The notes under the pieces are model-generated. The model had not been told where the DNA came from and did no database searches. It saw nothing but the letters and a program-made list of their open reading frames with translations. This document shows positions 8,945 through 45,019 of a stretch of DNA of 52,300 nucleotides, in pieces. Source of the stretch: a virus. Every line of letters begins with the position of its first letter. The first letter of the stretch is position 1. The stretch covers positions 1 through 52,300 of IMG/VR virus record IMGVR_UViG_3300047476_000672; one strand, given 5' to 3'. The translations under genes and the position numbers were made by a program.

Positions 8945-9020
8945 GTAGTCAGGGCCGACTCGAACGGTAAAGCAACCTTTAAAGGACTCGGCAACCACGC
9001 CTCATTACGCCACCTGACTA
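8945..9020 (-). tRNA. Degenerate tRNA-like sequence (anticodon unclear)
   Basis: On the minus strand the ends pair as a perfect 7-bp acceptor stem (TAGTCAG with CTGACTA), and a T-loop GTTCGAGTC lies at the correct distance from the 3' end (76 nt in all). The T stem has only three good pairs. A loop CTTTAAA would put UUA at the anticodon, but the arm has two wobble pairs and one mismatch, and the D arm is abnormal. It may be a decayed tRNA, a tRNA mimic, or a tRNA with unusual arms. It lies 64 bp downstream of a better tRNA on the same strand. Confidence 0.38.
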
Positions 9021-9084
9021 AATATTTGACTCAATTGTTTATCCTTATGTTGGGTTTCCGTTGAGTCATTACCTCCCAAATTTG

Positions 9085-9172
9085 TGGAGCAGACAGGATT
9101 CGAACCTGTAACAGGGACTTAAAGGAATTCTACACTCTAAGTTTGTTTGGCGACCAATTCCGCCACTGCTCC
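9085..9172 (-). tRNA. tRNA, class II (Leu-like, anticodon uncertain)
   Basis: The 88-nt minus-strand sequence has a perfect acceptor stem (GGAGCAG with CTGCTCC), a canonical T arm (ACAGG-TTCGAAT-CCTGT) and the start TGGCGGAATTGG typical of tRNA-Leu. The length fits a class II tRNA with a long variable arm. The anticodon arm is irregular: only ACA/TGT pair cleanly around AACTTAGAG, so UAG (Leu) and UUA are both possible readings. CCA is not encoded. It is co-oriented with SSB and may be cut from the same transcript. Confidence 0.68.
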
Positions 9173-11074: not shown

Positions 11075-11402
11075 TTCTTTCGTGAATTATCATTATTATT
11101 ATTCTCTCAAGTTCTTTTCTATTCTCTCCAGATATACCATTGTATGCGCACCAGTGGTCCAAGTCATCAACTCCTAAGTGTGTACTGAACTCCTTTTTTA
11201 ATCGCTGAATGTATAGCGTAGCATCCTGAAGCTCTTCCTGAAGGTGATTAAGCCAATCGTATGTACTTAAATCTTCTCTGTCAAGTGTTACACCATACTT
11301 TTTTATTCCTGTGTAGGAGCGTCTGTTAAACTGTTCAATTACATCTTGAACTATAGAATCTTTCTTCATAAATCTGTTGTCGTTGTCGTGTGTTATATTC
11401 AT
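11067..11402 (-). CDS. MazG-superfamily-like phage protein
   Basis: The 111-residue product reads DSIVQDVIEQFNRRSYTGIK, then KYGVTLDREDLSTYDWLNHLQEELQDATLYIQRL. This is the conserved core of a small phage protein family with a MazG-like fold, in which E-E-x-x-D residues (HLQEELQDA) would coordinate metal. It may hydrolyse a nucleotide or be an inactive relative. It is the second MazG-like gene in the block, overlapping the downstream gene by 8 bp. Confidence 0.62.
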   Translation of the reverse strand: MNITHDNDNRFMKKDSIVQDVIEQFNRRSYTGIKKYGVTLDREDLSTYDWLNHLQEELQDATLYIQRLKKEFSTHLGVDDLDHWCAYNGISGENRKELERIIIMIIHERNV

Positions 11403-11404
11403 AT

Positions 11405-11755
11405 CTATTTAATTAAATCAATTAATGGGAGGGCTATCCCTTTACTTGTGTCATTGTCTCCTCCTAGTCTATCGTTTTTTGTATTTAAATATTTCCTACA
11501 TTTTTCTTTTAATTCTTTCGTAGAAACAAGAATATATCGGCTATCTGATATTACTATGCAGTAATACTCTGCTTCTGTTGTTGATATACCGCTTGCTTTT
11601 CCTCTGGAACTATATTCTATAAATACATTTCCAGTCTTTTGAGCCATAAAGTCTCTCTTAACTTCTATCTTTTTATCTGAGAATATTTCAGATAACTTAT
11701 CCTCGGCTAATTTACCAAGCTTTAAGTCAAATTTAAAATTAGAACTTCTTTCCAT
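11405..11755 (-). CDS. PD-(D/E)XK nuclease-like protein
   Basis: From the ATG at 11755, two bases after the DnaB stop, the protein has 116 residues. The features GKLAEDKLSEIF, EVKRDF and GNVFIEYSSRGKASGISTTE match a small phage PD-(D/E)XK nuclease family: glutamate in the first helix, acidic/E-V-K strand, then a glutamate-bearing strand. It lies directly behind the replicative helicase and probably processes replication or recombination intermediates. A TTG start at 11767 would overlap the helicase and is less likely. Confidence 0.7.
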   Translation of the reverse strand: MERSSNFKFDLKLGKLAEDKLSEIFSDKKIEVKRDFMAQKTGNVFIEYSSRGKASGISTTEAEYYCIVISDSRYILVSTKELKEKCRKYLNTKNDRLGGDNDTSKGIALPLIDLIK

Positions 11756-11756
11756 A

Positions 11757-13136
11757 TTAAAAATCAATATTAGGTTTTAATTGTGTTTGAACGTAGTTAT
11801 CTACGTATTCATCATCTGTATCATCTGGGTTTCTCCATGCCGGTATCCTTGAGTCAAACTTCAAATGTATATCCTCAAGCTCACCATCCCTATGTTTAGC
11901 AACTATCAAGTATCCATCATCAGCTATTATACTAGCGTCTCTTTCTTCTGGATTCATATAGTAACTATTTCTGTATAAGAATGTTACGATGTCTGCATCT
12001 TGTTCAATGTCTCCTGATTCACGTAAATCACTAAGCATAGGTTTCTTATCAACCCTATGTTCAACTGCCCTTGACAACTGAGCTAATGCAATTACTGGTA
12101 TCTTCAAATCGTTAGCCATGTCCTTTAGTTTCCTTGATACGTCACCAACTTCGTTAGTTCTGTTCTGTGTTCCTGGCGATGTTATCTTCTGAATGTAGTC
12201 TATCACAACATAGTCAAGCCCTTCAGAGTGTTTCATCTTATAGATAAGAGAGAGGACATCTGATATGGTGAATGAACCAGCTACTATCTTTAGATTCGAA
12301 GAGATTATACGTCTTCTGGACCTTTCGTATCTACCCCTCTCGCTTGGCGTTAGTATTCCTCTTTTGATTGAGTAACCTGATATGCCGCTGTCTACTGATA
12401 TTATACGCTTCATCACCTGAACATCGTCCATTTCGCATGATATGAATAAACCTTTGTAGTTGTTGCTTATGCTTGCGTTCTTCATTAATCCAAGAGCAAA
12501 TTGCGTTTTACCCATAGCAGGCCGTGCAGCAACTATAATAAAGTTAGTTGGGTGCATACCAGAAGTTATCTTATCAAATCTTTTGTATCCTGTTCTGATT
12601 CCGTTAATTCCACTATTTGTGGCTGCCTCAGACATTTTCTTATCTAACTCATCAAGAAGGTCTTGGTTATTCATTTCCTTCTTGTTGGTTATTGACTTGA
12701 ACTTATTATCTAGGATATGACCCTGCATTAAGTCAATTACTTTCTGCGGTTCATAGTCTTCTGAAGTAGATATTTCTTCTACTTTCTTAGCAAAATCAAT
12801 ATGCTCATGTCTAATACTTTCAGCTATAAGATAATTAATAGCATCCGGAACTTCTTGCTTTTCAGAAAAAGAAAACATACTATAAATCTTTGACGATTCA
12901 GATAGTGCGTTTTGCTTGTGAATTGATTTAGATTTTAGTAACTCTTTAGATACTGTTATTAAGTTTATTGGCTGTTGGTTCATGTACAGATAAACCATCG
13001 CTTCAAAAATTAATTTGTGGATAGGGAGTGAAAACATATCAAGGTTAACCTTTGACATTACAACGTGTGTAGATGATGAATCTGTAAATATCGTATTGAG
13101 AACTAATTGCTCGGAACGTATTTGCATTTGATTCAT
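11757..13136 (-). CDS. dnaB: Replicative DNA helicase (DnaB-like)
   Basis: This 459-residue protein has the full DnaB layout: an N-terminal helical domain, a linker, and a RecA-like motor. Walker A is AARPAMGKTQFALG near residue 205, Walker B is LDYVVIDYIQKI, and ALAQLSRAVEHR with SDLRESGDIEQDADIV carries the downstream motor motifs. The final KHRDGELEDIHLKFD is also typical. It would unwind DNA 5'-3' as a hexamer at the phage fork. A DnaA-C-like protein and an unassigned protein that could be a loader precede it in the same operon. No primase is fused or adjacent. Confidence 0.95.
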   Translation of the reverse strand: MNQMQIRSEQLVLNTIFTDSSSTHVVMSKVNLDMFSLPIHKLIFEAMVYLYMNQQPINLITVSKELLKSKSIHKQNALSESSKIYSMFSFSEKQEVPDAINYLIAESIRHEHIDFAKKVEEISTSEDYEPQKVIDLMQGHILDNKFKSITNKKEMNNQDLLDELDKKMSEAATNSGINGIRTGYKRFDKITSGMHPTNFIIVAARPAMGKTQFALGLMKNASISNNYKGLFISCEMDDVQVMKRIISVDSGISGYSIKRGILTPSERGRYERSRRRIISSNLKIVAGSFTISDVLSLIYKMKHSEGLDYVVIDYIQKITSPGTQNRTNEVGDVSRKLKDMANDLKIPVIALAQLSRAVEHRVDKKPMLSDLRESGDIEQDADIVTFLYRNSYYMNPEERDASIIADDGYLIVAKHRDGELEDIHLKFDSRIPAWRNPDDTDDEYVDNYVQTQLKPNIDF

Positions 13137-23938: not shown

Positions 23939-23951
23939 GTTGATAGTGAAT
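23939..23951. repeat. 13-bp repeat GTTGATAGTGAAT (copy 3)
   Basis: GTTGATAGTGAAT occurs identically at 7828-7840, 15894-15906 and here. The last two copies lie in leaders of minus-strand genes and are followed on that strand by a T/A-rich stretch and ATG (ATTCACTATCAACA, then TTTTAAAT). It may be a shared translation-start or regulator-binding sequence. Confidence 0.5.
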
Positions 23952-24838
23952 TATGCTCCTAGACCCCATTCTTTTTTACAGTCATTACAGATAAAGCAAT
24001 TGTATTCGTGAAAGTAACTAGACTTTACATCTCTATCGCAGCAATCGCAACCGCTAACTTGATACTCTTCGTTCAATGCTTTGTCTGATTCCATGCACCA
24101 ATCGCATTTACCATTGTTTATCTCATTGATTCCGTATAGTTTTATATCGCAGTTAGTACATGAGTAAAAATCTTCTTCCTCATCTAGCCACATTGAACCT
24201 GCTGAATGATAAGTTGACTGTGTTTTGGGTGTGTACGCCCATGCGTTATATTGATTCTTGTAAACTTTTTTGCCTCCATAATCAACATAATTGTTTACTT
24301 GCTTATAAGATGAATTACTAAACCAACAATCCATATTCCAATGACCGGCTTTCTCGTTAACAATTCTGTATTCATTATCTGAATTAAGGAATACTAATTT
24401 AGAACCTTGACCTATATATAATTCAAGCATATCCATGATTACATCATTGTACTCAAATCCATCTTTCATATTCTTAAGTATTGTCTCATTGAACATATAA
24501 GTATCTGAAAAATCTTTGCTTGTTGGTACATCGTAAATCATTCCGTTATGGACAAAGCCTAAGTCATTATTAACTAAGAATGGGTGACAATTTGTTTTAT
24601 TTACCTTGCCATGAGTACTGATACGGAAATGTAAAACGATATTGTTTTTACCGTATTTTCTTTTGATGTCAATGTAGTTGGAATAAAAGTTCTCAAAAGA
24701 TTTCATTTCCTTGAACACTTGCATTTTGTTATTGTCAATGTAAAGTATTCCCGCACCATCGCCATTGTTTTCCCAACAGTTAGATAAAATATCTTTTGAT
24801 AATGTTGTTTTCTTCGTGTTTAAAATTGCTATACACAT
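23951..24838 (-). CDS. Class II glutamine amidotransferase with zinc-finger C-terminus
   Basis: The 295-residue protein has Cys2 directly after the initiator methionine (MCIAILN), the catalytic nucleophile of N-terminal-nucleophile GATases. VLHFRISTHGKVNKTNCHPF and LGFVHNGMIYDV follow in the usual order. Such domains release ammonia from glutamine for a synthetase. The C-terminal 80 residues carry C-x2-C pairs (SCTNCDIKLYG, KCDWCME, GCDCCDRD, CFICNDCKKEW), probably zinc-binding. It is next to an amidoligase gene, and both proteins begin M-x-I-A-I-L-N and end L-G-A, so the two are probably a functional pair making an amide or isopeptide bond on an unknown target. Confidence 0.8.
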   Translation of the reverse strand: MCIAILNTKKTTLSKDILSNCWENNGDGAGILYIDNNKMQVFKEMKSFENFYSNYIDIKRKYGKNNIVLHFRISTHGKVNKTNCHPFLVNNDLGFVHNGMIYDVPTSKDFSDTYMFNETILKNMKDGFEYNDVIMDMLELYIGQGSKLVFLNSDNEYRIVNEKAGHWNMDCWFSNSSYKQVNNYVDYGGKKVYKNQYNAWAYTPKTQSTYHSAGSMWLDEEEDFYSCTNCDIKLYGINEINNGKCDWCMESDKALNEEYQVSGCDCCDRDVKSSYFHEYNCFICNDCKKEWGLGA

Positions 24839-24865: not shown

Positions 24866-26353
24866 TTATGCACCTAGTTGGTTAGATGCGTTTTCTATTG
24901 TGTCAACTTTTACTTGTGACCTGATTAGTTTAGGTAATTGCTTATCGTTAAATGATTGACTATATTTTATGAACAATTCTACTTTGTCAATTAACTTTTC
25001 TTGTGAATATACAAGACGTAAATGTTTGTAAAGTTTACTCTTTGGATTCATCATCATTTGAAGTATTTCGATTTCGGATAAACCTTTGTAGTAAGATTCG
25101 AATCCTTTAATCTTTGTTTCTTTGATTGAAGAACACATGATACGTAGTAAATCCCTGCGCCACAATAAGTTAGTAACATTCTTTACTGCACTTGGTATTC
25201 TAAATTCAAGAACATTTGATTTGATATATACTGCTGAATACTTATCAGAAGAATATTTGTAGCTATGTTTCTTTCTTGCCTTAGAATAATTTGTTTCAAT
25301 CCTATGTTCATACATTGAATAGAACAATGGCAACCAACCTGATAAGTGTTCGAACAATGTTTCTGTATCGAATAAGCTAGAAGCTACATTGATATGACCG
25401 CCACATGAAGATGAAGTATTCGCATTGATTAATGTTTGCAAGTCTGAATCTTTAGCTATTTCGTCCTCAAGGTCTGATGAATAAAGGTCAAATGCTGGTG
25501 TTACAAGTTCGTATCCGCTACTGTCACAAAGAGAACCATCTTTTTCTTTAATCCAATCTGTTCTGTCGTAAAGGTCTTGATATTCTATTTCCACCGCATT
25601 ATCATCTTCCTTTTCTATTTCAAAACCAATTGAAAACTTAGGTGCTTCGTCAAATCTTTTTGTTCTTCTAAGGTCATGGTAACTAGCATTTTTTTCTATT
25701 GGATAGTCTTCATCAGTATACCATTCGTCATGACCTTCGTGGTATATTAAGCCATGATACCTAGCTGCGTCAGAATCCATATAGTTATCGCCATTTATTC
25801 TTAATGGTTGTCCGTAGCTCAATTGAAAATGTGTTTCATAGTCATGACCTTCTACATAACCGTAAAATACATCATCTCTATCTGTCTCAACCATTTCGCA
25901 ATGGTATTCAGAATAAGCAATATCTAGTTCACATTCTGTACTTTCAATGTATGTATTTCCATGTTTTGTTCTATAAACCTCATCAATTGGTGCGTATTCG
26001 TCATTAAGTGTAGCAAATTTACATTCGCTTTTCCAAGCATACTCACCGTTGTACATTTCAACAATAAGTTCGGGGTCTACATTCCTAACTATTTCGCCGT
26101 CATGTAGTACAAATTCATTTTCGAATTGCATAAATTTTTCGTTCCATTCTTGTATCGTTATTACCTGATATTCTTCTGACGGTTCACCAACACAATCTGA
26201 AAACATTACTTCATCGTCATATATGTAGAAACAGTTAACAGAATCTCCAGACCATGAATTGTTAGTCTTTCTGTTTATTAAATCAATGTAGCTTTGAAAC
26301 ATTTGTTTCTCACTAGAATTGAAATTTTCCGAGTTTAAAATTGCTATTTTCAT
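24866..26353 (-). CDS. Putative amidoligase (COOH-NH2 ligase family)
   Basis: The 495-residue protein has a variable N-terminal half and, from about residue 240, an amidoligase-like core: FSIGFEIEKED, WIKEKDGSLCDSSGYELVTP, SSSCGGHINV and VLEFRIPSAVKNVTNLLWRR. These match the glutamine-synthetase-like amidoligases predicted to join carboxyl and amino groups using ATP. The N-terminal part includes degenerate D/C/H-rich segments (GYVEGHDYETHF, YMDSDAARYHGLIYHEGHDE). It is paired with the adjacent class II amidotransferase, as known for predicted modification systems in phages and bacteria. The substrate is unknown. Its ATG overlaps the TGA of the upstream ORF. Confidence 0.75.
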   Translation of the reverse strand: MKIAILNSENFNSSEKQMFQSYIDLINRKTNNSWSGDSVNCFYIYDDEVMFSDCVGEPSEEYQVITIQEWNEKFMQFENEFVLHDGEIVRNVDPELIVEMYNGEYAWKSECKFATLNDEYAPIDEVYRTKHGNTYIESTECELDIAYSEYHCEMVETDRDDVFYGYVEGHDYETHFQLSYGQPLRINGDNYMDSDAARYHGLIYHEGHDEWYTDEDYPIEKNASYHDLRRTKRFDEAPKFSIGFEIEKEDDNAVEIEYQDLYDRTDWIKEKDGSLCDSSGYELVTPAFDLYSSDLEDEIAKDSDLQTLINANTSSSCGGHINVASSLFDTETLFEHLSGWLPLFYSMYEHRIETNYSKARKKHSYKYSSDKYSAVYIKSNVLEFRIPSAVKNVTNLLWRRDLLRIMCSSIKETKIKGFESYYKGLSEIEILQMMMNPKSKLYKHLRLVYSQEKLIDKVELFIKYSQSFNDKQLPKLIRSQVKVDTIENASNQLGA

Positions 26354-27230: not shown

Positions 27231-27602
27231 TTACTTTGTTGCGTAATATTTCTTAATTAATAAACACATTTCGTACACGCTGAAGCCCTCTTTTTGAGCA
27301 TTCTTTTCTGTTCTTAATGGTATTAAGTTTTTCGGCGTTAAATCGGCAACATTAAAGCCTTTTATACCTGCAAAAAATTCATCGCCGAATTCAATTACAC
27401 GCTTAATACAGTATGAAAAACTTTTCCCGTCTTGTTTATGCGCATTGTTTGTAGCATAAATTGCCGTCATTAAACTTTTTCCCGTTACTCCTTCATTAAG
27501 ATACCTTACTGCCTCTTTTGTTTTGTTGTTTACTACTTTTGTACCTTTTGCGATTTTAGTAGTAGTTACTTTTTTTCCGTTTGTTTTTACATTTGCTTTC
27601 AT
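27231..27602 (-). CDS. First gene of the early transcript, hypothetical protein
   Basis: From the ATG at 27602 the product has 123 residues: a basic tail (MKANVKTNGKKVTTTKIAKG) followed by a helical domain (AVRYLNEGVTGKSLMTAIYA, then SFSYCIKRVIEFGDEFFAGI). An ORF extension to 27671 would run through the hammerhead ribozyme and is rejected. Basic N-terminus and early position fit a DNA- or RNA-binding early protein; no family recognised. It starts 78 nt downstream of the predicted ribozyme cleavage site. Confidence 0.6.
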   Translation of the reverse strand: MKANVKTNGKKVTTTKIAKGTKVVNNKTKEAVRYLNEGVTGKSLMTAIYATNNAHKQDGKSFSYCIKRVIEFGDEFFAGIKGFNVADLTPKNLIPLRTEKNAQKEGFSVYEMCLLIKKYYATK

Positions 27603-27631: not shown

Positions 27632-27690
27632 AAATTCCGTTTCGTCCTTTTGGACTCTTCAGGCAGGGCACTCACCCCACTACGGAAATT
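27632..27690 (-). ncRNA. Type III hammerhead ribozyme
   Basis: On the minus strand the order is: stem III strand TTCCGT, cleavage residue A (27681, in a GUA context), stem I (GTGGGG with CCCTGC, 6-nt loop), core CTGAAGA, stem II (GTCC-AAAA-GGAC), core GAA, then ACGGAA closing stem III. All invariant core residues are present: C3 U4 G5 A6 N7 G8 A9, G12 A13 A14, and the U16.1-A15.1 pair. Predicted cleavage is between 27681 and 27680, leaving a 78-nt leader before the first early gene. Hammerheads are known in some phage genomes. Confidence 0.85.
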
Positions 27691-27920: not shown

Positions 27921-27927
27921 GATGAAG

Positions 27928-27960
27928 CAAATATAAGAACATAAAATTTAATTAAACAAG
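27928..27960 (-). promoter_or_regulatory. Promoter of the early minus-strand transcript
   Basis: On the minus strand TATATTTG (27935-27928) is an exact -7 box. CTTG (27960-27957) lies 21 bp upstream, within the range accepted for Bacteroidota -33 elements. It is placed to drive the whole early block starting with the gene at 27231-27602, through a leader of about 320 nt containing the hammerhead ribozyme. Confidence 0.62.
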
Positions 27961-28792: not shown

Positions 28793-29098
28793 ATGATTAG
28801 TAAGGGAGGTATAGACTTGAGTGTCTGTATGTATTGTAAGACCTCTTTGGATGAGTATTCGAGAACGGTAGACCATTTGTATCCGAAGTCCAGGGGAGGC
28901 AAGTTAAGCAATGACAATAAGGTTCCTTGTTGTGGAGACTGTAATAAGTTGAAGGGGAACATGAGTATTGTTGAGTTTAGCAATGCTTTAAATTCTTTTA
29001 TATTTTTTAATCACCGGAGCATTTCTCATTTAAAGAAGATAAAGAGGAATGTTGATGAGTTGATTGAGTCTAGGAAAACTTCTGGTAATGGAAAATAA
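28793..29098 (+). CDS. HNH endonuclease
   Basis: From the ATG at 28793 the product has 101 residues. VCMYCKTSLDEYSRTVDHLY, then PKSRGGKLSNDNKVPCCGDC and NKLKGNM form a classical HNH/treble-clef domain. D-H in TVDHLYP, N in SNDN and the N-x-x-K-G of the closing helix are the expected residues, with C-x2-C pairs for zinc. It is the first gene of the packaging operon. HNH proteins next to terminases can assist DNA cutting during packaging, but it could also be a homing enzyme. A TTG at 28772 precedes the likely transcription start and is rejected. Confidence 0.82.
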   Translation: MISKGGIDLSVCMYCKTSLDEYSRTVDHLYPKSRGGKLSNDNKVPCCGDCNKLKGNMSIVEFSNALNSFIFFNHRSISHLKKIKRNVDELIESRKTSGNGK

Positions 29099-44728: not shown

Positions 44729-45019
44729 ATGTTAGACAAGAAATCAATGCCATGTAATAAGCCACGTAAGTCACCTAATCCTAAAAAGAAGAAGGTGGTT
44801 AAGGCTTGTCAGAATGGTCAAGAAAAGATAATTCATTTTGGTGCTACTGGATATGGTCATAACTATTCATCAGCAGCAAGAAAGTCATTTAAAGCACGGC
44901 ACAATTGTTCAACAGCTACAAGCAAACTTACTGCTCGTTATTGGGCTTGTAAGAATCTATGGGCAGGAAAAGGTGGTGATACACAAAGCTCACCAAGTAA
45001 TAGAAGAGGTAAATATTAA
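44729..45019 (+). CDS. Small conserved phage protein (DUF6321-like)
   Basis: A 96-residue basic protein: VVKACQNGQEKIIHFGATGYGHN, then SFKARHNCSTATSKLTARYW and ACKNLW. The I-x-F-G ... S-F-x-A-R-H-x-C ... L-T-A-R-Y-W-x-C pattern is a widespread small phage protein, probably a virion component with bound metal through conserved C/H. It follows the connector genes, 6 bp downstream. Confidence 0.72.
   Translation: MLDKKSMPCNKPRKSPNPKKKKVVKACQNGQEKIIHFGATGYGHNYSSAARKSFKARHNCSTATSKLTARYWACKNLWAGKGGDTQSSPSNRRGKY

Follow-up and report, generated by a model that had tools for sequence, protein, structure and literature searches.

Does a hammerhead ribozyme between the early promoter and the first early gene of a phage serve to cut the early transcript at that point, and if so, is it the particular ribozyme or the cut itself that is under selection? 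The window, by which we mean the whole stretch of DNA analyzed here, is an entire 52.3-kb virus record; the phage belongs to an uncultured lineage and has a P22-like portal. Its early region has no nucleotide match, and its portal and 495-aa gene have no protein match, in 50,697 annotated phage records, in which the matches to its terminase are remote (23 to 30%); we conclude from this that the phage has no isolate relative. The terminase is encoded by no bacterial genome in the collection that was searched. The host is probably a member of the Bacteroidota, as judged from the promoter only. Elsewhere in the window, ARAGORN calls a minus-strand tRNA with the anticodon UUA at 9084 to 9172 (a "tRNA-Stop," which would read UAA; 35.1 bits with the Rfam tRNA model), and a second, degenerate tRNA-like stretch can be read by eye after it, at about 8953 to 9016.

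The minus strand from 27687 to 27635 reads as a type III hammerhead ribozyme with a GUA cleavage triplet. From its 5' end, it consists of the 5' strand of stem III (UUCCGU, 27687 to 27682, which pairs with ACGGAA at 27640 to 27635), A27681, stem I (GUGGGG at 27680 to 27675 with CCCUGC at 27668 to 27663) enclosing loop I (UGAGUG, 27674 to 27669), the core segment CUGAAGA (27662 to 27656), which fits the CUGANGA consensus, stem II (GUCC/GGAC) with loop II (AAAA), together spanning 27655 to 27644, and the core segment GAA (27643 to 27641). Stem III has six Watson-Crick pairs, as seen from the sequence and from column pair counts, stem I has six pairs that include one U.G and one G.U, and stem II has four. 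Both core segments are intact and in register, the triplet GUA (27683 to 27681) fits the NUH rule, and the A15.1-U16.1 pair (U27682 with A27640) is also intact. The preliminary description of this locus had named a type III hammerhead with an invariant core, and CUGAAGA, GAA, GUA, and the A15.1-U16.1 pair bear this out. Its "three closed stems" are all present, but the wording is loose, since stem III of a type III hammerhead is the open end; stems I and II are loop-closed both in the fold and in the alignment to the Rfam model. Similarly, its interval of 27632 to 27690 marks the right site but is 3 nt too wide on either side. The predicted cut falls between 27681 and 27680 of the minus strand, and both this position and a leader of 78 nt from there to the ATG at 27602, as proposed earlier, agree with the sequence.

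The Infernal search with the Rfam type III model that had been put forward as a check on this claim gave a full-length match to RF00008 (Hammerhead_3) at 27634 to 27688. The secondary structure and core are the same, and the score is 37.1 bits, which is below the gathering score of 48.5 bits. The E value is 1.9e-4 when the whole window is searched with all Rfam families, 4.4e-8 with RF00008 alone, and 2.5e-6 for a 701-base stretch. The sub-gathering score is the one point in favor of a chance resemblance, and the score with a phage-derived model and the shuffles described next refute that explanation, to which we assign a negligible probability. A covariance model (R1) trained on 21 phage type III hammerheads, with the window copy and the likeness closest to it, L261, withheld, scores the window copy at 67.2 bits (E of 3.4e-17 over 522 kb). 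Because the Rfam type I model misses or barely detects the type I hammerheads of the relatives described below, a purpose-written scanner for all three hammerhead types was used. When the window was dinucleotide-shuffled 200 times, this scanner found no hits at a stem score of 16, the score of the window copy, and 0.005 hits per window at a stem score of at least 14. In the window itself, it found this copy and one weak type III hit on the plus strand at 1695 to 1770, which has two 3-pair stems. Based on the sequence reading, the Infernal searches, the fold, the scanner, and the shuffles, we conclude that 27687 to 27635 is, by its sequence, a genuine and complete type III hammerhead for which cleavage is predicted.

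As an isolated piece, the motif has a minimum free energy fold of -19.7 kcal/mol that is the hammerhead structure (z = -2.8). In context, the predicted probability of stem III, the open stem, is 0.03, and it ranges from 0.006 to 0.13 in transcripts of at least 240 nt. We had considered this low value as an argument against cleavage and dropped it after calibration on other phage hammerheads, in which the equilibrium probability of the open stem is just as low (median of 0.04, n = 35), which makes the value for the window ordinary. The same low values might instead suggest a regulated switch, in which cleavage is controlled by ligand binding, by another RNA, or by refolding (for example, by ACGG about 25 nt upstream of the ribozyme pairing with CCGU of stem III), and regulated hammerheads have been proposed in the haloviruses HF1 and HF2 (PMC3088659). 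However, the energy model behind these probabilities omits the loop-loop contact, the tertiary interaction between loops I and II on which fast cleavage depends, and a shared control is hard to reconcile with the exchange of unrelated elements at this site in relatives. We consider a switch quite improbable, and the "processing switch" of the preliminary description is not supported: we found no aptamer and no conserved alternative fold, and the stem probability is unremarkable.

The motif lies, as previously described, between an early promoter and the first early gene. A pattern match to a Bacteroidota-type promoter (-33 TTG, -7 TATATTTG) is found on the minus strand at 27959 to 27928, and several relatives have similar -33/-7 matches ahead of their first early gene. 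From this promoter, the early minus-strand transcript is predicted to start near 27921. Together with the cleavage site, this would define a noncoding leader of about 240 nt (27921 to 27681), close to the earlier estimate of about 245 nt for the upstream fragment; the minus strand has no open reading frame of at least 60 aa within this interval. Downstream of the cleavage site, a 78-nt leader (27680 to 27603) that begins with stems I and II would stay with the message. The first early gene, g1 (27602 to 27231, minus strand), encodes 123 aa and has orthologues that are 46 to 61% identical, and it matches no PHROGs or Pfam family at an E value of ≤0.001. A PDB profile hit of g1 to a designed PPR protein was set aside, as no single stretch passes alone, and so was a longer open reading frame from a GTG at 27671, which overlaps part of the ribozyme and to which the orthologues give no support. 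On the opposite side of the promoter, a divergent plus-strand gene (28793 to 29098) encodes a CxxC motif and, as read from the sequence, an HNH-like sequence, and is about 63 to 82% identical in relatives.

Comparison with other phage hammerheads places the window ribozyme in an already known kind. In viral contigs selected for a GUCC/GGAC stem II, we found 90 hammerheads in 80 loci (67 of type I, 21 of type III, and 2 unassigned). The next gene in these loci begins a median of 31 nt after the hammerhead, and the preceding stop codon lies a median of 21 nt before it. Many phage type III hammerheads recurrently combine a loop I of the form U-GWGU-R (UGWGUR) with a loop II of the form NAAA, and UGAGUG and AAAA of the window are this recurrent pair. 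In an ungapped alignment of 23 type III hammerheads, 21 of which make up model R1, 12 of the 16 pairs vary on both sides; these sequences were picked by stem pairing, which biases the pair count, and not by their loop letters. That hammerheads flank phage genes has been reported previously (Perreault et al. 2011, PMC3088659), and in HF1 and HF2 a hammerhead lies 13 nt upstream of the first open reading frame of an early polycistron, where a role in RNA processing has been proposed (PMC3088659). The earlier claim that the placement is unusual is thus only weakly right, since hammerheads upstream of genes are common, and a type I hammerhead occupies the same position in six loci with g1. Because the HF1/HF2 case is already published, a hammerhead that heads an early operon has a precedent; what is new is the comparison of this site across relatives.

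The nearest likenesses of the window ribozyme are in L261 and L033, phages of other gene content that share little else with the window: distant relatives of the genes at 24866 to 26353 and 23951 to 24838 and a few others (e.g., 44729 to 45019). The first of these minus-strand genes encodes the 495-aa protein, which reads as amidoligase-like and has no Pfam or PHROGs match, and the second, with which it is paired, encodes a glutamine amidotransferase of class II (GATase_4). Both genes have distant relatives in several other phages with type III hammerheads (L261, L033, L263, and L085). A nearly identical ribozyme in such phages, together with the single type III copy in the clade of the window, would be expected of a relic or passenger that moves between phages and has no present role. 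Against this, the core, stems, and loop pair of the window copy are fully intact, its score with the phage model is high (67 bits), and the matching site is filled in nearly all loci with g1, so that we regard a relic as very unlikely.

Relatives were gathered by portal, terminase, and g1 searches, and the site that corresponds to the ribozyme, which we call the slot, was located in each with the first early gene and the conserved divergent gene as landmarks. Of the 13 loci with g1, the window included, 12 have an occupied slot. A type I hammerhead is directly upstream of g1 in L175, L179, L221, L224, L230, and L240. It has the form GGUUAA-CUGANGA-stem II-GAA-stem III-UH^UUAACC, and the variants of its stem II (GUCC/GGAC, GUCU/AGAC, GCUU/AAGC, and GCUA/UAGC) keep their pairing through compensating changes. 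Two copies may be weak: that of L179, in which a C.A pair adjoins the core, and that of L240, with a core that reads CCGAUGA. A second type I hammerhead is found between genes 1 and 2 in L175 and L224; the type I elements of L175 are at 11353 to 11421 and 11826 to 11898. The slot of L253 contains a tRNA-like element with a T-arm, and the slots of L164, L166, L196, and L362 contain a covarying three-hairpin element composed of GCCUUG, UUACU-AUG-AGUAA, a 5-bp hairpin with AGCGAAA, CAAGGC, and A-CUAACC. This element pairs in all cells of its alignment, and four pairs are changed on both sides, among four sequences only. In L164 (13493 to 13546, plus strand) and the three other loci, the AGCGAAA loop and the UUACUAUGAGUAA hairpin are invariant ahead of g1. 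There is no credible Rfam match at the L164 element, which is possibly a self-cleaving RNA or tRNA-like. No recognized slot element is present in L364, the remaining locus with g1, or in several relatives with other first genes.

The exchange of slot elements can be seen directly in an alignment (A6) of L363, which has a type I hammerhead and is on the contig of L230, with the loci that have the three-hairpin element. These share the leader up to the element, including stretches such as UAUGUAUGGGGG, UCAGAACG, and CCUUGAAAUA, and the shared sequence resumes past the exchanged element as (U or C)UAACC (YUAACC). A 29-row terminase tree requires at least 12 changes of slot occupant, some of them between near-identical terminases. 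Since some relatives carry another gene 1, cassettes of an element and a first gene also move. The window lacks the YUAACC that follows the slot element in its g1 relatives, and within this phage clade the type III form is seen in the window only. Among relatives for which the site is sequenced, the nearest is L174, whose terminase is 86% identical; its first gene differs, it has no recognized slot element, and Rfam is silent over 300 to 1500. On the minus strand of L174, a strongly structured 150-nt gap without an Rfam match lies between early genes 1 and 2 at about 880 to 1030 (1118 to 1273 on the early strand).

The conserved noncoding sequence upstream of the exchanged element is what would be expected if the cut served the leader, that is, if the leader of about 240 nt were a phage noncoding RNA whose 3' end is formed by the hammerhead. 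A boxA-like GTTCTTTG in the leaders of some relatives is also in keeping with this. However, the leader of the window has no match to it, and the same slot elements are found between genes 1 and 2 in relatives, where there is no such leader. We therefore judge that formation of a leader RNA is unlikely to be the purpose of the cut. In L164, L166, L175, L179, L203, L224, and L230, the boxA-like GTTCTTTG precedes the first early gene by about 230 to 410 nt, which suggests antitermination in these phages.

Slots filled by tRNA-like elements were found in L169, L170, L171, L173, L202, L203, L223, and L253. These elements have an acceptor-like stem of 6 to 7 bp on which a T-arm is stacked (4 to 5 bp, UUCRANY loop), usually followed by one base and CUAA, and, where this could be read, a start codon is 21 to 43 nt beyond them. 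Elements with the CUAA tail occur 10 times in 496 kb of relatives, compared with 0.0 expected in shuffles, a figure that refers to elements with the tail, acceptor pairing having been part of the search rule. ARAGORN calls no tRNA in the 17 relatives on which it was run, and the Rfam tRNA model is silent in L171 and L173; by these searches, the slot elements of the relatives are not recognized as tRNAs with a canonical cloverleaf and an anticodon arm. In a pattern scan of viral contigs that returned 87 stretches, 54 of the readable matches are acceptor-paired and not called as tRNAs. An open reading frame starts within 50 nt of 43 of these 54 (median of 22 nt), versus 1 of 9 true tRNAs. Several of the contigs with tRNA-like elements also have type I hammerheads. 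The elements are widespread, being found in dozens of phages (L265 to L344 among them) with the acceptor stem, T-arm, and CUAAC tail, and ATGG follows soon after the 5' acceptor strand in 14 of 48 distinct elements. No Rfam 15 model for them was found in the loci tested, two elements compared with annotated phages have no nucleotide match, and phage leader elements of this kind were not found in the open-access literature.

Based on these comparisons, we think it probable that the early transcript is cut constitutively and that selection acts on the break rather than on a particular ribozyme. The type III hammerhead of the window would make a single co-transcriptional cut in the early transcript, after A27681. 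The upstream product would be the leader RNA of about 240 nt, ending in a 2',3'-cyclic phosphate, and the downstream product would be the early message, which would start with a 5'-OH and the folded stems I and II. The role would be constitutive processing without ligand control: the leader would be parted from the first gene and the 5' end of the message would be fixed. The sequences show the motif, its statistical significance, its position, and the exchange of slot elements. We infer that the hammerhead cleaves in the cell, that host nucleases act on the tRNA-like elements, and that the cut affects the stability or translation of the message. Related phages would gain a break at the equal place by a type I hammerhead or by the action of host RNase P or RNase Z on a tRNA-like element, and it is because they probably obtain the break in these other ways that the cut itself, and not one ribozyme, appears to be selected. 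Cleavage by a type I hammerhead would leave UUAACCAAUUAAU...AUG. An RNase Z-style cut after the base that precedes CUAA would leave CUAAC...AUG, which is nearly equal to the type I end, while after an RNase P-style cut the message would retain the tRNA-like fold. In the window, unlike in the type I case, the stems of the ribozyme would be retained at the 5' end of the message, which they might shield. These retained stems, the lack of YUAACC in the window, the single type III copy in the clade, the possibly weak type I copies, and the loci with no recognized element weigh against our reading.

Several known systems resemble parts of this arrangement. The C4 RNA of phages P1 and P7, an antisense immunity RNA, is cleaved by RNase P within a phage leader; in contrast to it, the slot elements of the relatives have a T-arm and a CUAA tail right before the gene. 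The hammerhead of HF1 and HF2 (HHphage) and other phage and prophage hammerheads (PMC3088659) have the consensus core and the proximity to phage genes in common with the window ribozyme, which differs from them in being type III, in its UGAGUG/AAAA loops, and in occupying a slot that its relatives share with tRNA-like elements. The theta (HDV-like) ribozymes of Caudoviricetes, whose hosts include Bacteroidota, adjoin tRNA genes and are phage self-cleaving RNAs proposed to process transcripts instead of host nucleases (PMC10879173), but they are a different ribozyme class and act on tRNA 3' trailers.

We give about equal weight for and against the broader proposition that uncultured phages, probably of Bacteroidota, keep "cut here" slots before early genes that are filled interchangeably by ribozymes of different topology or by a new and widespread tRNA-like class that would borrow host RNase P or RNase Z, which in the g1 family would both leave a nearly equal short leader (YUAACC...). 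The slot comparison reveals a tRNA-like leader element in dozens of phages that, in the loci tested, is absent from Rfam. What purpose phage hammerheads serve has been a question ever since their discovery, and the replacement of type III, type I, and tRNA-like elements by one another before one gene provides a natural control, as an RNA break at that point is what these elements would have in common. The interchangeability of the slot elements makes the processing hypothesis directly testable.
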